A stretch of 64,000 nt of DNA from Gemmatimonas phototrophica. GTDB lineage: Bacteria; Gemmatimonadota; Gemmatimonadetes; Gemmatimonadales; Gemmatimonadaceae. Both the position numbers and the translations under genes were made by a program. The stretch covers positions 3,596,001 to 3,660,000 of the forward strand of contig NZ_CP011454.1 in the NCBI RefSeq assembly GCF_000695095.2, read 5' to 3'. Below the pieces are notes generated by a model. It saw nothing but the letters and a program-made list of their open reading frames with translations. It was not told where the DNA came from and did not search any database. Shown here in pieces: positions 17,402 through 22,709 of the stretch (position 1 is the first letter of the stretch; each line of letters begins with the position of its first letter).

Positions 17402-17806
17402 TCAGCGCGAGTGACGGTACATCATCTCCACGAGTTCGTCGTACATGGCCTCGGCTTCCACCGGGCCCTGTTGAATGGCGGCGGCGGCACAGTGCTTGAG
17501 ATGGTTGCGCATGAGTTCCCGCCCAACGGCGCGCAGCGCTTCGTGCACGCTGGCAATCTGGGTGAGAATGTCGGCGCAATAGCGATCATCGTCCACCATT
17601 TTCTGCAGACCGCGCACTTGCCCCTCAATGCGACGCAGGCGTTTCTGATTGCGCTCCTTGGCATCGCGGTCCACCGCGACGGCCTTGCGTCCATCAGCGG
17701 GAGTCTCGCCGTCTGCGGGCTGCGCGCCGCAGCCGCACCCCACCGTCCGGACGTCGAGTACAGAGGGAGCTTTGGCAATCTTGGGAGTGACGACTCGTGT
17801 GGGCAT
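17402..17806 (-). CDS. csoR: CsoR-family copper-sensing repressor with N-terminal Cys extension
   Basis: A 134-residue member of the CsoR/RcnR/FrmR family of all-helical metal-sensing repressors. The Cu(I) fingerprint is complete: Cys77 (RYCADIL), His102 and Cys106 (HLKHC), with the spacing of Mycobacterium CsoR (25 and 4 residues). The DNA-facing helix reads RLRRIEGQVRGLQKM. An extra ~45 residues precede the core and include VGCGCG (Cys24, Cys26), which is unusual. It lies 17 bp after copA in the same operon, and a CsoR-type operator lies in the operon promoter, so autoregulation is likely: copper binding releases the repressor. Confidence 0.92.
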   Translation of the reverse strand: MPTRVVTPKIAKAPSVLDVRTVGCGCGAQPADGETPADGRKAVAVDRDAKERNQKRLRRIEGQVRGLQKMVDDDRYCADILTQIASVHEALRAVGRELMRNHLKHCAAAAIQQGPVEAEAMYDELVEMMYRHSR

Positions 17807-17823
17807 GGCGCGCGAAGGAAACC

Positions 17824-20178
17824 TCAGTCGAAGGTGGCGCGACGGAGTCGCAGGGAATTGGTCACGACACTCACCGAGCTGAACGCCATCGCGGCGCTGG
17901 CCAGAATGGGACTGAGTTGCAGACCGAACGCCGGATACAGCGCGCCCGCCGCAACGGGGATGCCGATCACGTTGTAGACAAAGGCCCAGAAGAGATTCTG
18001 CCGCATCGTGCGCATGGTACGACGCGACAAGGCTATGGCACGGACCACGCCCTGCAGGTCGCCGCGCATCAGGACAATGTCTCCCGCTTCAACCGCGACA
18101 TCCGTCCCGCTGCCAATCGCCATCCCGACGTCCGCCTGCGCCAGCGCGGGGGCATCGTTGATGCCGTCACCCACCATGGCCACCACGGTCCCCTGCGCCT
18201 GAATTCGCTTGACCTCGGCCACCTTGCCGTCGGGGAGCACGCCCGCGACGACCCGGTCCACCCTTGCCGCTCGTCCAATGGCTTGTGCGGTGCGTTCATT
18301 GTCCCCCGTGAGCATGACCACCTGCAGCCCCATGGCATGCAAACGGGCAATAGCGGCGGTGGATGAGGCGCGGATCGGATCGGCCACGGCGATGAGGCCG
18401 ACCAGCTGACCGTCCATGGCCACGAACATGGGTGTCTTTCCATCATCGCTCAGACGCAACGCCTGATCCGCAAGTGGCGAAGTGCTCACACCCCAATCGG
18501 CCAAAAAGGCCGCGTTGCCCACGACCAGCGCGGCGTCACGGACGACGCCCTGTGCGCCACGTCCGGTTACCGAGGTGAACGACTCCGGTTCGTCCAGCAC
18601 CAGCGCACGAGTGGCCGCTTCACGCACAATGGCATCCGCCAGCGGATGCTCACTGGACCGCTCAAGACTCGCCACACGTTGCAGCAGCACATCCGCAGTG
18701 ACCTCAACGCCGGGCGCCAGGAGCACATCGGTCACGACGGGCTTGCCTTCGGTAATGGTGCCAGTCTTGTCGAGCACCACCGTGCCGATGTCGCCGGCTC
18801 GCTGCAGCGCTTCGCCGCCCTTGATGAGCACCCCCATTTCGGCGCCCTTACCACTGGCCACCATTACCGCGGTTGGCACCGCCAGTCCCATGGCACACGG
18901 GCAGGCGATGATCAACACGGCCACCGCCGCCGCAAACGCCCGCACCAGGGGTGCCGTATCGGCGGCCACGTACCAGACGCCAAAGGTGAGGACGGCCAGC
19001 AGCAGCACCACCGGCACAAACACGGCACTGATGCGATCGGCCAGATGCTGGATGGGCGCGCGGGTCCCCTGCGCATCGCGCATGAGCTTCACGATCTGCG
19101 CCAGCACGCTGCTGGCCCCGAGTGTGGTGGCGCGGTAGCGGAACGCGCCGGTGCGATTGATGGTCCCGCCAATCACCCGGTCGCCCGGATGCTTGCTCAC
19201 GGGCATGGATTCCCCGGTGAGCATGCTTTCGTCCACGGCGCTGTCTCCCTGCACCACTTCACCGTCCGTGGGGATGCGTTCACCGGGGCGCACGATGATG
19301 ACTTCATCAGGCTCCACGGTATCCACAGGCGCATCCACCTCCTCACCAAAGCGCGCCACGCGTGCCGTCTTCGGTTGGAGCGCCACCAAGGAGCGCAGGG
19401 CCGCCGAGGTACGCATTTTGGCGCGGGCCTCGAACATGTTGCCGGTGAGAATCAAGGCGATGATGATGATCACCGCCTCGTAGTACACATCGGGCATCAC
19501 GCCACGCGAAGTGAAGAAGACGGGCGACACCGTGGCCATGAGCGAATAGACAAACGCCGCGAGGGTGCCCACGCTGACCAGCGTATTCATGTCGGCCGCC
19601 CCATGACGCAGTGCCGCCCAGGCGCGCGTGTAGAAGTGCCGACCAGCCCACAGCATGACCAGCAACGTGGCGGCCAGCAACGCCAGCGTGAGCGCGCGCG
19701 CGGGGATGGCATACAGCCACGGCAGGACGGCCCGCAGGGTTGGATCGAGTGCGCTCATGCTCCAGCGCATGAACGGATCGGCCACGACCGCGTGCTGGTG
19801 TTCGCCGGCGAGGCTGCCCATGAGCGGCATGCTCACCAGCATCGCCAGGACACCAATCCCGCCGCTTACGAGCGCCTTTCGGCGCAGCGACTCATACTCG
19901 GCGGCCTGCGCGCGCTCGCGCGCTTCCTGTTCCTCGAACGCGGTTTGATCGGCGTCGGCCAGTGCCGCGCCATAGCCCGCGTCGCGAATGACATCGAGTA
20001 ACGCATCCGGCGTGATCGCGCCCGGATCGAAGGTGACCGTGGCGCTCTTCATCATGAGATTCACGGCGGCGTCGCTCACGCCGGGCGACTTCTGCAACGA
20101 GCGTTGCACGCGCGATGAACAAGCGGCGCACGTCATCCCGGTGACCGGGATGCGGAGTGTGGCTGTCGCTGATGTCAT
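17824..20178 (-). CDS. copA: Copper-translocating P-type ATPase
   Basis: A 784-residue P1B-type ATPase that exports Cu(I) from the cytoplasm. One N-terminal heavy-metal-associated domain carries GMTCAACSS. The membrane ion site is CPC in [13 protein letters not shown], the phosphorylation site is [11 protein letters not shown], and the hinge is [10 protein letters not shown]. Six to eight membrane segments are visible by hydrophobicity. The N-terminal linker carries a short charged insert ([15 protein letters not shown]). It is the middle gene of a copZ-copA-csoR operon, 46 bp after copZ and 17 bp before csoR, and should be induced by copper through the CsoR-type site at 20471-20487. Confidence 0.97.
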
Positions 20179-20224
20179 GGAACCACCTCGTGGTCCTGTA
20201 CGCGAGGATGCGCTGGCGGGAGCG

Positions 20225-20434
20225 TCAGCGCGTCGCGACCACGGCGTAGCCCGCGTCGTCGATGGCCTGTGCGATCTGCGCGGGGGTGGTCTGCGCCGGA
20301 TCGAATGCCACGGTGGCGGTTCCGATGGCGACGGCTTCTACGGTGACGCCCGAGGTCTGCTGCAGGGCCTTGTCCACCGCCTTGACGCAGTGACCGCAGG
20401 ACATCCCGGTGATTTCAAAAGTGGCGTGCTGCAT
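20225..20434 (-). CDS. copZ: Copper chaperone, HMA domain
   Basis: A 69-residue single heavy-metal-associated domain. [15 protein letters not shown] supplies the CxxC copper site at the start of the first helix, and the fold is completed by [17 protein letters not shown] and a second helix. It delivers Cu(I) to CopA, encoded immediately downstream. The start is supported by AGGAG six bases upstream of the ATG. The gene is transcribed from the promoter at 20462-20490, whose spacer holds a CsoR-type palindrome. Confidence 0.95.
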
Positions 20435-20513: not shown

Positions 20514-21434
20514 TCAGCCCACGCCGCCGCGAATGCGGAGCGGCGTCCCCCAGGGATCGCGGACCAGCTCTTCCTGCACTGCGAATCCTGCGCCACCGAG
20601 TGCAGCCAGCACATCGCCGGGCGATGGGACCACGATACTCCACTCGAGCAGTTGGGCATCGTGGGCGCCAGAGGCCGGGGCCGCTTCGGCCCAGGTATTG
20701 GTGCCCAGATGATGGTGGTATCCGCCGGCGCCAAGGAAGAGTGCCCCCGGATACCGCCAGACCATGCGATCGAACCCGAGCGCGTGGTGGTAGAAGGTGG
20801 CCGCGTGTGGGAGATCGCCGACGTGGAGATGGAGGTGCCCCATGACCGTGCCAGGTGGCATCCCTGTCCACGGATCACCCGCGGCGGATGCCACGACAGC
20901 CGGGAAATCCAACGGATCGGTGGCCATCATGAGCTCCTGACCGATACGCTGCCATGCCGCCCGCGGACGGTCGCGGTAGACCTCGATCCCCAACCCATCG
21001 GGGTCCTGGAGATAGACCGCCTCACTGACCAGATGGTCGCTGGCCCCCGCCCGCACACCCAGCCTGGCCAGATGCTGCACGAAGCGCCCCAGCGATGGCC
21101 GGTCGGGGAGCAGGATGGCAAAGTGATACAGCCCGAGCCGCGATCCCGGACGGACTGGCGTCGTGCCCGGTCGCCACTCCAGAACGACCAGCGGTTCGGA
21201 GGCACCGTTGACGCCGAGCTGCACCACATCGGCGGTGCGCGAGAGCTCCGTGAGCCCGAGCACCTGCTGGTACCACTGCTGCGAGCGCTCCAGGTGACTG
21301 ACCTGGAGACGAACCGGCCCCAGCCGCAGCTGCTGGGGCAACCGATACCCACGTGGCGCATCGCCGTAGCTGCCGGGGTGCGCGGGCTGCGCCACGGGCG
21401 CGCCGCCGAACATGTCGTGACTGGAAACTCCCAT
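20514..21434 (-). CDS. VOC-superfamily protein, CatE-like (ring-cleavage dioxygenase or glyoxalase fold)
   Basis: A 306-residue protein with two VOC modules (about residues 38-150 and 190-300). The first reads LGPVRLQVSHLERSQQWY, LYHFAILLP and DPDGLGIEVYRDRP; the second GHLHLHVGDLPHAATFYHHALG, then HHHLGTN. Two tandem VOC modules with His and Glu metal ligands are the layout of extradiol (catechol 2,3-) dioxygenases of the Bacillus CatE type. Those enzymes open catecholic rings and are often controlled by MarR or thiol-stress repressors. The upstream region has a strong promoter placed so that the transcript would start at the ATG, plus an 11-bp palindrome. Function beyond the fold is inferred. 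Confidence 0.82.
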   Translation of the reverse strand: MGVSSHDMFGGAPVAQPAHPGSYGDAPRGYRLPQQLRLGPVRLQVSHLERSQQWYQQVLGLTELSRTADVVQLGVNGASEPLVVLEWRPGTTPVRPGSRLGLYHFAILLPDRPSLGRFVQHLARLGVRAGASDHLVSEAVYLQDPDGLGIEVYRDRPRAAWQRIGQELMMATDPLDFPAVVASAAGDPWTGMPPGTVMGHLHLHVGDLPHAATFYHHALGFDRMVWRYPGALFLGAGGYHHHLGTNTWAEAAPASGAHDAQLLEWSIVVPSPGDVLAALGGAGFAVQEELVRDPWGTPLRIRGGVG

Positions 21435-21441
21435 ACATCGA

Positions 21442-21470
21442 ATTATTTCCGTTTACACAATCATTGTCAA
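21442..21470 (-). promoter_or_regulatory. Promoter of the VOC gene (leaderless layout) with palindrome
   Basis: On the minus strand TTGACA (21465-21470), 17 bp, then AATAAT (21442-21447). Only 7 bases separate the -10 box from the ATG at 21434, so the mRNA would begin at or next to the start codon. The perfect palindrome ACAAT-C-ATTGT (21457-21467) overlaps the -35 box and spacer and resembles MarR-type operators. Confidence 0.55.
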
Positions 21471-21598
21471 GCTAATCATGTTCGTTTCGTCCATAAGGTG
21501 TTGATGAATGCTGGGGTGAGTCGGCACCCCGGCGTCACAGGACGCATTGAGCGAGGGTAGAATGAATTTGAGGTCCATATCGAACCCCCGGAGGGCGC

Positions 21599-22090
21599 AT
21601 GCGTTCTGTACGCTGGTTCAGCCGCCGTAGCCGCACCACCGTGATTGGTGCGGCACTCGTAATGCCGTTCGTCGCGGGCGCGTGTGCGCGACAGTCGAAA
21701 CCCACCGCTGCCCCGACACCGGAGAGCAGTGGCTCCGGCCGGACCGCTCCTACCATGGAGTCAATCAATTCCGTGGAGGAGGGGGCGTTTGGCCAACAGC
21801 CGGTTTCCCGGGTGGAAGAGTTGTTCGTTGGCCGGTTTCCAGGTGTTCAGGTGCTGAACGTCAACGGTCAGGTGCAAGTCCGCATCCGCGGGGCCTCCTC
21901 GTTCAACGCCAATACCGAACCACTCATTCTGGTCGATGGGCAGCAGATGACGCAGGGATCGGGCGGCCTGATCGGCCTCAACCCTCGCGACATCCATAAG
22001 ATCGAGGTGCTCAAGGATGCCGTCTCGATGGCGGAGTTCGGAGTTCGGGGCAGCAATGGCGTCATCCGCATCACGACGAAACGTCAGTAA
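21599..22090 (+). CDS. Lipoprotein-like protein with an isolated TonB-receptor plug domain
   Basis: A 163-residue exported protein. Residues 1-29 form a signal with RRSR and a hydrophobic core ending VAGAC, a weak lipobox. After a Ser/Pro-rich linker, residues ~70-163 match the plug domain of SusC/TonB-dependent receptors: VQVRIRGASSF, PLILVDGQ, LNPRDIHKIEVLKDA, EFGVRGSNGVIRITTK. No beta-barrel follows; the gene ends right after the plug. A full receptor has a ~600-residue barrel after this point, so this is either a free plug-like adaptor or a decayed receptor. GGAGGG lies just upstream of the ATG. Function is unknown. Confidence 0.8.
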   Translation: MRSVRWFSRRSRTTVIGAALVMPFVAGACARQSKPTAAPTPESSGSGRTAPTMESINSVEEGAFGQQPVSRVEELFVGRFPGVQVLNVNGQVQVRIRGASSFNANTEPLILVDGQQMTQGSGGLIGLNPRDIHKIEVLKDAVSMAEFGVRGSNGVIRITTKRQ

Positions 22091-22142
22091 GCGTCATCAC
22101 CAAGCCCGCCGTTTCCCGTATCTTTCGGGATATGGAGACCCT

Positions 22143-22709
22143 ATGAGAACGTTTATCCGTGCTTTCCATTTGGTCGTGGTGTTGGCGTGCAGCGCGGCGG
22201 CAGCCCACGCCCAGCACCCGGCCGATGTGTCGTTCATGCAGGGGATGATTGGCCATCACGCGCAGGCGGTGCAGATGACCGCGCTCGTCGAAGTGCGCAC
22301 GCGCACTCCGGAGCTGCGCCTGCTCGCCGAGCGCATCACGGTGTCGCAGCGCGACGAAATTGACATCATGTCGCGCTGGCTCAACGAACAGAAACAGCCG
22401 ATCCCACCATCGGATCCGCATGCCATGCACCCCATGGCTCCAGGCCACGGGGCGCACGCCATGCCCGGCATGTTGTCGTCCGCCCAGATGGACAGCCTGA
22501 CCGCGGCCCGTGGTGTCTCGTTTGACACCCTCTTCCTGCAGTACATGATTCAGCATCACGAAGGAGCGCTGGTCATGGTCGCCGACCTGCTGCAGGTGAA
22601 TGGCGCCGCGCGCGACCCGCAGATCTTTCAGTTTGCGTCTGATGTGGATACCGATCAGCGCGCCGAAATTCGCCGCATGCGCACCCTGCTGAACACCTTG
22701 AAGCGGTAG
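22143..22709 (+). CDS. DUF305 protein, exported
   Basis: A 188-residue protein with a signal peptide (about residues 1-23, ending AAAHAQ). DUF305 has a ferritin-like helical fold with paired motifs, here FMQGMIGHHAQAVQM and LQYMIQHHEGALVM, each with a His-His pair that may bind metal. A His/Met-rich linker (HAMHPMAPGHGAHAMPGM) suggests copper or another soft metal, which is an inference. GGAG lies six bases before the ATG at 22143. It directly precedes the LVIVD-repeat gene and may be co-transcribed with it, an arrangement seen with secreted metal proteins. Confidence 0.87.
   Translation: MRTFIRAFHLVVVLACSAAAAHAQHPADVSFMQGMIGHHAQAVQMTALVEVRTRTPELRLLAERITVSQRDEIDIMSRWLNEQKQPIPPSDPHAMHPMAPGHGAHAMPGMLSSAQMDSLTAARGVSFDTLFLQYMIQHHEGALVMVADLLQVNGAARDPQIFQFASDVDTDQRAEIRRMRTLLNTLKR

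Follow-up and report, generated by a model that had tools for sequence, protein, structure and literature searches.

Is a gene that codes for the plug domain of a SusC-type receptor and then stops a gene in its own right or what is left of a truncated receptor, and what could a plug do apart from its barrel? Both questions are raised by a plug-only gene for 163 amino acids, which was read as an open reading frame on the forward strand (21599–22090) of the window, i.e. of the whole 64-kb stretch of DNA analyzed here.

Anatomy of the plug-only gene

The locus comprises the following features (positions in the window):

20514–21434, reverse strand: divergent VOC/glyoxalase-family gene, adjoining the plug gene in 7 of 7 orthologous loci read
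21534–21563, forward strand: weak sigma-70-like promoter match GTCACA-18-TAGAAT (9 of 12 bases; consensus match only)
21590–21595, forward strand: Shine-Dalgarno-like GGAGGG, 3 bases ahead of the ATG (GGAGGA in the relatives L061–L063)
21599–22090, forward strand: gene for the predicted plug-only lipoprotein, 163 aa (sequence, Pfam and NCBIfam matches, orthologs)
21599–21682, forward strand: lipoprotein-type signal peptide, residues 1–28 (sequence; family lipobox rule)
21683–21685, forward strand: codon of Cys29, the predicted lipidated residue (sequence; position from the lipobox rule)
21686–21751, forward strand: fast-changing linker, residues 30–51, without Ton-box motif (ortholog comparison, motif scan)
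21752–22084, forward strand: SusC/RagA-type plug domain, residues 52–162 (Pfam, NCBIfam, PDB relatives)
22143–22709, forward strand: DUF305/CopM-like gene, downstream in 4 of 7 orthologous loci (L066, L067, L147, L148)

A signal peptide, a linker and a SusC-type plug followed by a stop had been the original prediction, and this order is borne out by the ORF and by the Pfam and NCBIfam matches. The Pfam Plug domain was found on residues 52–155 (E 5.9e-13; 49.7 bits against a cut-off of 23.9). From NCBIfam, the SusC/RagA model TIGR04056 matched with positions 95–205 of its 981 only (E 7.1e-29, under the whole-protein cut-off), and the SusC signature TIGR04057 reached 44.1 bits against a cut-off of 46.2. 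SusC homologs and RagA were also the PDB relatives of the single focal sequence, and a profile of the family described below matched Bt1763 (5t3r; E 4.7e-27) and RagA (6sli; E 1.1e-25) and, more weakly, the ColI receptor, PirA and BtuB. Two structure models from shallow alignments were poor (mean pLDDT 41 and 52); the best matches of the second weak model in the PDB by Foldseek, again SusC homologs and RagA, were given little weight. No known RNA families were found across 21300–22250.

The type of the signal had been left unnamed originally; the N-terminus has the features of bacterial lipoproteins, namely a charged start, a hydrophobic stretch and a lipobox with cysteine (MRSVRWFSRRSRTTVIGAALVMPFVAGA|C, with the lipobox ALVMPFVAGA|C at Cys29), scored here and below by the textbook lipobox rule. 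No Ton box (V-x-V-G-Y-G) was found in the linker ahead of the plug with a pattern that catches 42 of 56 receptors. The protein ends 8 residues past the Pfam Plug match and the DUF305 gene begins 52 bp after the stop, so there is no room for a barrel frame, as had been noted originally, and the C-terminal β-barrel by which SusC/RagA receptors are recognized is absent. No partner SusD gene adjoins the plug gene, whose direct neighbors are the VOC and DUF305 genes, and a second SusC-type plug frame was not found in the window. The protein shares with SusC/RagA receptors (TIGR04056; e.g. Bt1763 and RagA) the plug domain, but it has neither barrel nor PG loop nor Ton-box motif.

Copper-handling-like genes, recognized by eye, lie at 17402–20434 on the reverse strand (a CsoR-like repressor, a metal P-type ATPase and an HMA protein). 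The DUF305 protein is CopM-like, just below the NCBIfam cut-off, and several copper-type genes adjoin the plug gene in relatives as well.

Orthologs, selection and the barrels of the same genome

Orthologs of equal length had been proposed as a check on a recent truncation. Seven syntenic, equally barrel-less orthologs were found, each beside the VOC gene (L061, L062, L063, L066, L067, L147 and L148). L061–L063 are named MAGs, one of them a Gemmatimonas sp., which are mutually close and have other genes downstream of the plug gene; in L066, L067, L147 and L148, the DUF305 and choice-of-anchor-B genes then follow, about 3 kb on in L067 and L148. Within the genus of the window, at least five of nine genomes (G000, G022, G048, G105 and G115) carry the plug gene among the matches listed. 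At the loci of three further relatives the gene is absent, no plug match being obtained there at E up to 1, and it is therefore dispensable: in G201 the VOC and DUF305 genes are about 260 bp apart, in G110 other genes lie between them, and in G142 the VOC gene stands in an unrelated setting. In G193, no match to the VOC gene was obtained. A full-length receptor, which would have spoken against the original reading, was found in none of the ten relatives' loci (seven with the short gene, three without it).

Five of the seven syntenic orthologs were taken into a selection test. The focal plug is 85–89% identical to that of four orthologs (dN 0.07–0.11; dS 1.2–2.4) and 59% identical to that of L067 (dN 0.35; dS 1.85), values of dS near saturation which make the dN/dS ratio rough. 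Third codon positions are 39–53% identical, first and second positions 66–95%, and the N-terminal parts of the orthologs 23–44%. We judge that the focal plug is under purifying selection. A recent truncation or pseudogene was rejected on the grounds of this selection, the seven syntenic orthologs, the family tree described below and the lack of a full-length receptor in the ten loci.

Receptor barrels without plugs, which had been suggested as a further check, were sought in the genome of the window (G000; 4.72 Mb, one contig) and not found. Among its 51 Plug matches, the focal one alone lies in a frame shorter than 460 aa (172 aa). Each of the 31 frames in which PF00593 detects a barrel (32 matches) has a Plug match too, as judged by eye from coordinates and frame lengths, a comparison which barrels missed by PF00593 would escape; frames with a SusC match above the curated cut-off have plugs as well. 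Since no plugless barrel was found, the focal gene is not half of a split receptor with separate plug and barrel genes, and this candidate was rejected for G000.

Two proteins of the same genome share with the focal one a plug without a barrel, namely L027 (829–2208; G000:C1:2778263) and L028 (835–2220; G000:C1:1086387), both of the architecture CarboxypepD_reg, Plug and TonB_C. They differ from it in length, at about 460 aa per frame, and in their TonB C-terminal domain. Other Plug frames of G000 with 489–681 aa may resemble them.

By its sequence, the product is conserved, consists of a lipoprotein-type signal, a linker and a single SusC/RagA-type plug, and is not a broken receptor; anatomy, conservation and the exclusion of a truncation, taken together, we regard as almost certain. 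Synteny, purifying selection and the family's lipobox thereby all speak for a free-standing plug with a predicted lipid anchor.

A family of barrel-less plugs

Judged from sequence comparison, the gene is a member of an old family of barrel-less plugs. In the taxonomic family of the window, barrel-less plug frames were counted by hand among the listed rows in 20 of 59 genomes and confirmed on fetched loci. Across Gemmatimonadota, at least 42 of 200 genomes have a short plug frame among the matches listed, as judged by eye from frame lengths, with barrel-less plugs in six family groups (f1, f2, f4, f5, f6 and f7), and in the phylum of Flagellimonas (Bacteroidota) at least 8 of 296 genomes do so among the matches listed; the search profile was built from barrel-less plugs and favors finding this kind. 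Six of the latter frames were read and have a lipobox by eye. Two Flagellimonas genomes gave 77 plug matches (E up to 1e-10), none of them barrel-less except one broken frame at a contig end, a verdict which leaves out frames of 569–637 aa. Plug-only lipoproteins were rarely seen in Bacteroidota. While the plug domain itself is well known, we found no conserved family of barrel-less plug lipoproteins named in the open-license literature searched, SusC in Gemmatimonadetes included. Spread by viruses gained no support: a single scan of viral contigs, made with one peptide pattern, yielded no confirmed relative.

A tree was calculated from 131 plugs, each identical plug entered once: 75 barrel-less (stop at most 60 residues past the plug) and 56 full (at least 300 residues beyond it, or running off the end); frames that continue for 60 to 300 residues past the plug were left out, as were those covering the plug profile incompletely. 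The labels change twice on this tree, against 42 times on average for shuffled labels. When the 75 barrel-less plugs were held as one clade, the likelihood was better by 8.4 lnL (p-AU 0.586), and one origin is therefore compatible with the data but not proved; L091, although barrel-less, stands beside a receptor in the free tree, and the alignment has only 120 columns.

Barrel-less plugs and receptors differ in a loop and in the signal. The loop after GVxV has 6–9 residues in 70 of 72 barrel-less rows and at least 10 in 49 of 50 full rows, counting the rows which the pattern could measure. Among non-redundant rows (63 barrel-less, 49 full), three alignment columns are empty in every barrel-less one; one of these columns is P in 94% of receptors and is followed by a column with G in 96% of receptors against 19% of barrel-less plugs. 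An insert further on, present in some receptors, has no copy in the barrel-less plugs. With the whole upstream part searched, a strict lipobox was found in 65 of the 75 barrel-less rows but in only 1 of the 56 full-length ones, and in the barrel-less family this lipoprotein-type signal lies close to the plug. Within 75 residues of the plug, a span too short for a receptor's own signal, no full-length row (0 of 56) has a lipobox. The ten barrel-less rows that failed the strict rule have a cysteine after a hydrophobic stretch by eye. In a first set of 39 barrel-less frames, the scan placed the lipobox cysteine in 38; it misplaced that of L087 far upstream, although a fitting cysteine is visible closer to the plug, and L067, without lipobox by scan, has a cysteine behind a hydrophobic stretch by eye.

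The plug core is about equally conserved in both groups: R97 is kept in 95% of barrel-less plugs and 100% of receptors, K139 in 89% and 94%, and G148 in 100% of both. R97 and K139, which we took to resemble the charged residues of the plug-barrel salt bridges of FhuA, were dropped as counterparts of these, the idea having no literature support and being inseparable from conservation of the fold.

Members of the family lie near SusC-type genes more often than expected. Of 35 loci, 17 hold a longer SusC-type plug frame. The number of plug candidates in each genome would predict 5.3, and 0 of 200,000 simulations reached 17; the loci are not independent, several coming from one genome, and two of them are orthologs of the focal gene, both without SusC frame. 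The 35 loci had been chosen by their short frame regardless of neighbors; with a few at contig ends left aside, they take in nearly every row of this kind. A further 20 loci, chosen in part because SusC genes lie nearby, were excluded from this count. The order susC-susD-plug on one strand occurs in L131, L132, L133, L091, L076 and L149, and plug-susC-susD in L143; SusD was identified by Pfam in L131, L091, L149, L143 and L085 and in other loci by similarity only. The commoner arrangement is a SusC gene on the opposite strand, some kilobases off. A SusD-like neighbor cluster was found at 26 of 56 short-plug positions, in a set partly picked for nearby SusC genes and surveyed without six of the focal orthologs.

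In four loci, a convergent PAP2-family gene adjoins the barrel-less plug gene, e.g. in L080 (4880–6274; Pfam on L080 only). In L152 and L153, from the phylum of Flagellimonas, the barrel-less plug precedes a longer SusC-type frame of the same strand by 130–290 bases; that frame runs beyond the stretch examined.

Possible roles of a putatively tethered plug

With a probability of roughly 40%, we read the protein as an accessory plug on a lipid anchor which works in trans on barrels of the SusC type, because of published work on SusC and FpvAI together with the anatomy. The protein would be exported, lipidated and placed in the outer membrane, where the tether would keep the plug near the membrane and let it act in trans on SusC-type barrels that retain their own plug. 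It could cap a barrel, as had been envisaged originally, or close it again from the periplasm during displacement of the barrel's own plug, by which the permeability barrier would be protected or transport tuned. Without the Ton-box motif, the focal subgroup would be a passive cap beyond the pull of TonB; members with a Ton-box motif such as L143, several of them beside susC and susD, could also be pulled by TonB.

In the available part of PMC10994204, a plugless barrel recovers part of its function when a soluble FpvAI plug is made separately and acts in trans, an example of a plug that works without a barrel of its own. That laboratory construct was engineered for a plugless barrel as partner, whereas the focal gene is natural, has a lipoprotein-type signal and finds no plugless barrel in its genome. 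The accessible text of PMC7782687 describes closed, empty SusC barrels that lack their plug in vitro, a state judged likely non-physiological but telling by the authors, and calls the reset mechanism of SusC unclear. According to an excerpt of PMC11658791, the isolated FepA plug behaved as unfolded.

The accessory plug is favored by the conservation of the gene, the family that is compatible with one clade, the lipobox, the SusC/SusD neighborhood of the family and the retained core residues of the plug. Against it stand the absence of another SusC-type plug frame from the window and the copper-type and VOC genes as neighbors of the focal gene. Core conservation can reflect the fold alone, and with the loss of the PG loop, near-universal in SusC plugs, barrel-less plugs may not occupy a barrel as SusC plugs normally do. 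A spare plug is also not obviously needed where every barrel found has a plug. The unfolded behavior of the isolated FepA plug, the dispensability of the gene and the poor quality of both structure models weigh against this reading as well. The lost PG loop and the copper-type neighborhood of the focal gene speak for caution.

The main rival, nearly as likely but tentative too, is a ligand-binding or scaffold lipoprotein likened to a surface glycan-binding protein, with the plug fold re-used outside the barrel for a glycan, a metal or a SusD/SusC surface. The SusD-like cluster and the five SusD neighbors by Pfam fit this reading, the loss of the PG loop and the absent receptor insert suit a life outside the barrel, and the isolated FepA plug binds ligand weakly in the same excerpt of PMC11658791. 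However, the core residues are kept nearly as in receptors, a binding site is not apparent, and there are no SusCD genes near the focal locus.

Small phage lipoproteins are known to block FhuA, e.g. Llp of phage T5, an outer-membrane lipoprotein that likewise acts on a TonB-dependent receptor but is phage-borne and is not known to be a plug domain. A role in capping SusC-type receptors against the phages or bacteriocins that exploit them would agree with a small lipoprotein which, among the matches listed, occurs in at least five of nine genomes of the genus, and with plug domains reported from viruses of Bacteroides and Alistipes in the available part of PMC8857322; given the syntenic inheritance and the outcome of the viral-contig scan, it is improbable. 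Even less is to be said for a TonB decoy or regulator, whose Ton box would compete with receptors for TonB. The motif stands at the SusC Ton-box place in 17 of 75 barrel-less and 42 of 56 full-length rows, and the Ton box of Bt1763 is given as DEVVVTG in the accessible text of PMC7782687, but the focal protein is among the 58 of 75 rows without it; as 14 of 56 receptors escape the pattern, divergent Ton boxes may in some cases be overlooked. Lacking the motif, the focal protein is unlikely to bind TonB through a Ton box, and the interaction with TonB that had been envisaged gains no support for it. A functionless remnant of a truncated SusC receptor is hardly credible: the sequence is clearly related to SusC plugs and the gene does not occur in every genome of the genus (at least five of nine among the matches listed), but few amino-acid changes stand against many silent ones in the plug, the seven orthologs are syntenic and barrel-less, and the family has its own signal type and its own loop.

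Returning to the accessory plug, a bolder and rather doubtful extension is that in bacteria rich in SusC receptors, spare plugs on a lipid tether are kept in reserve, which would slip into a barrel or cap it once its own plug has been withdrawn. If true, such spare plugs would be an undescribed guard of the outer-membrane barrier. A conserved plug with a predicted lipid tether, in some loci beside susC and susD, offers a natural reagent. The family also suggests that evolution has long used the plug as a module separate from its barrel, and that it would be a mistake to discount short 'plug domain' genes of these phyla as fragments.
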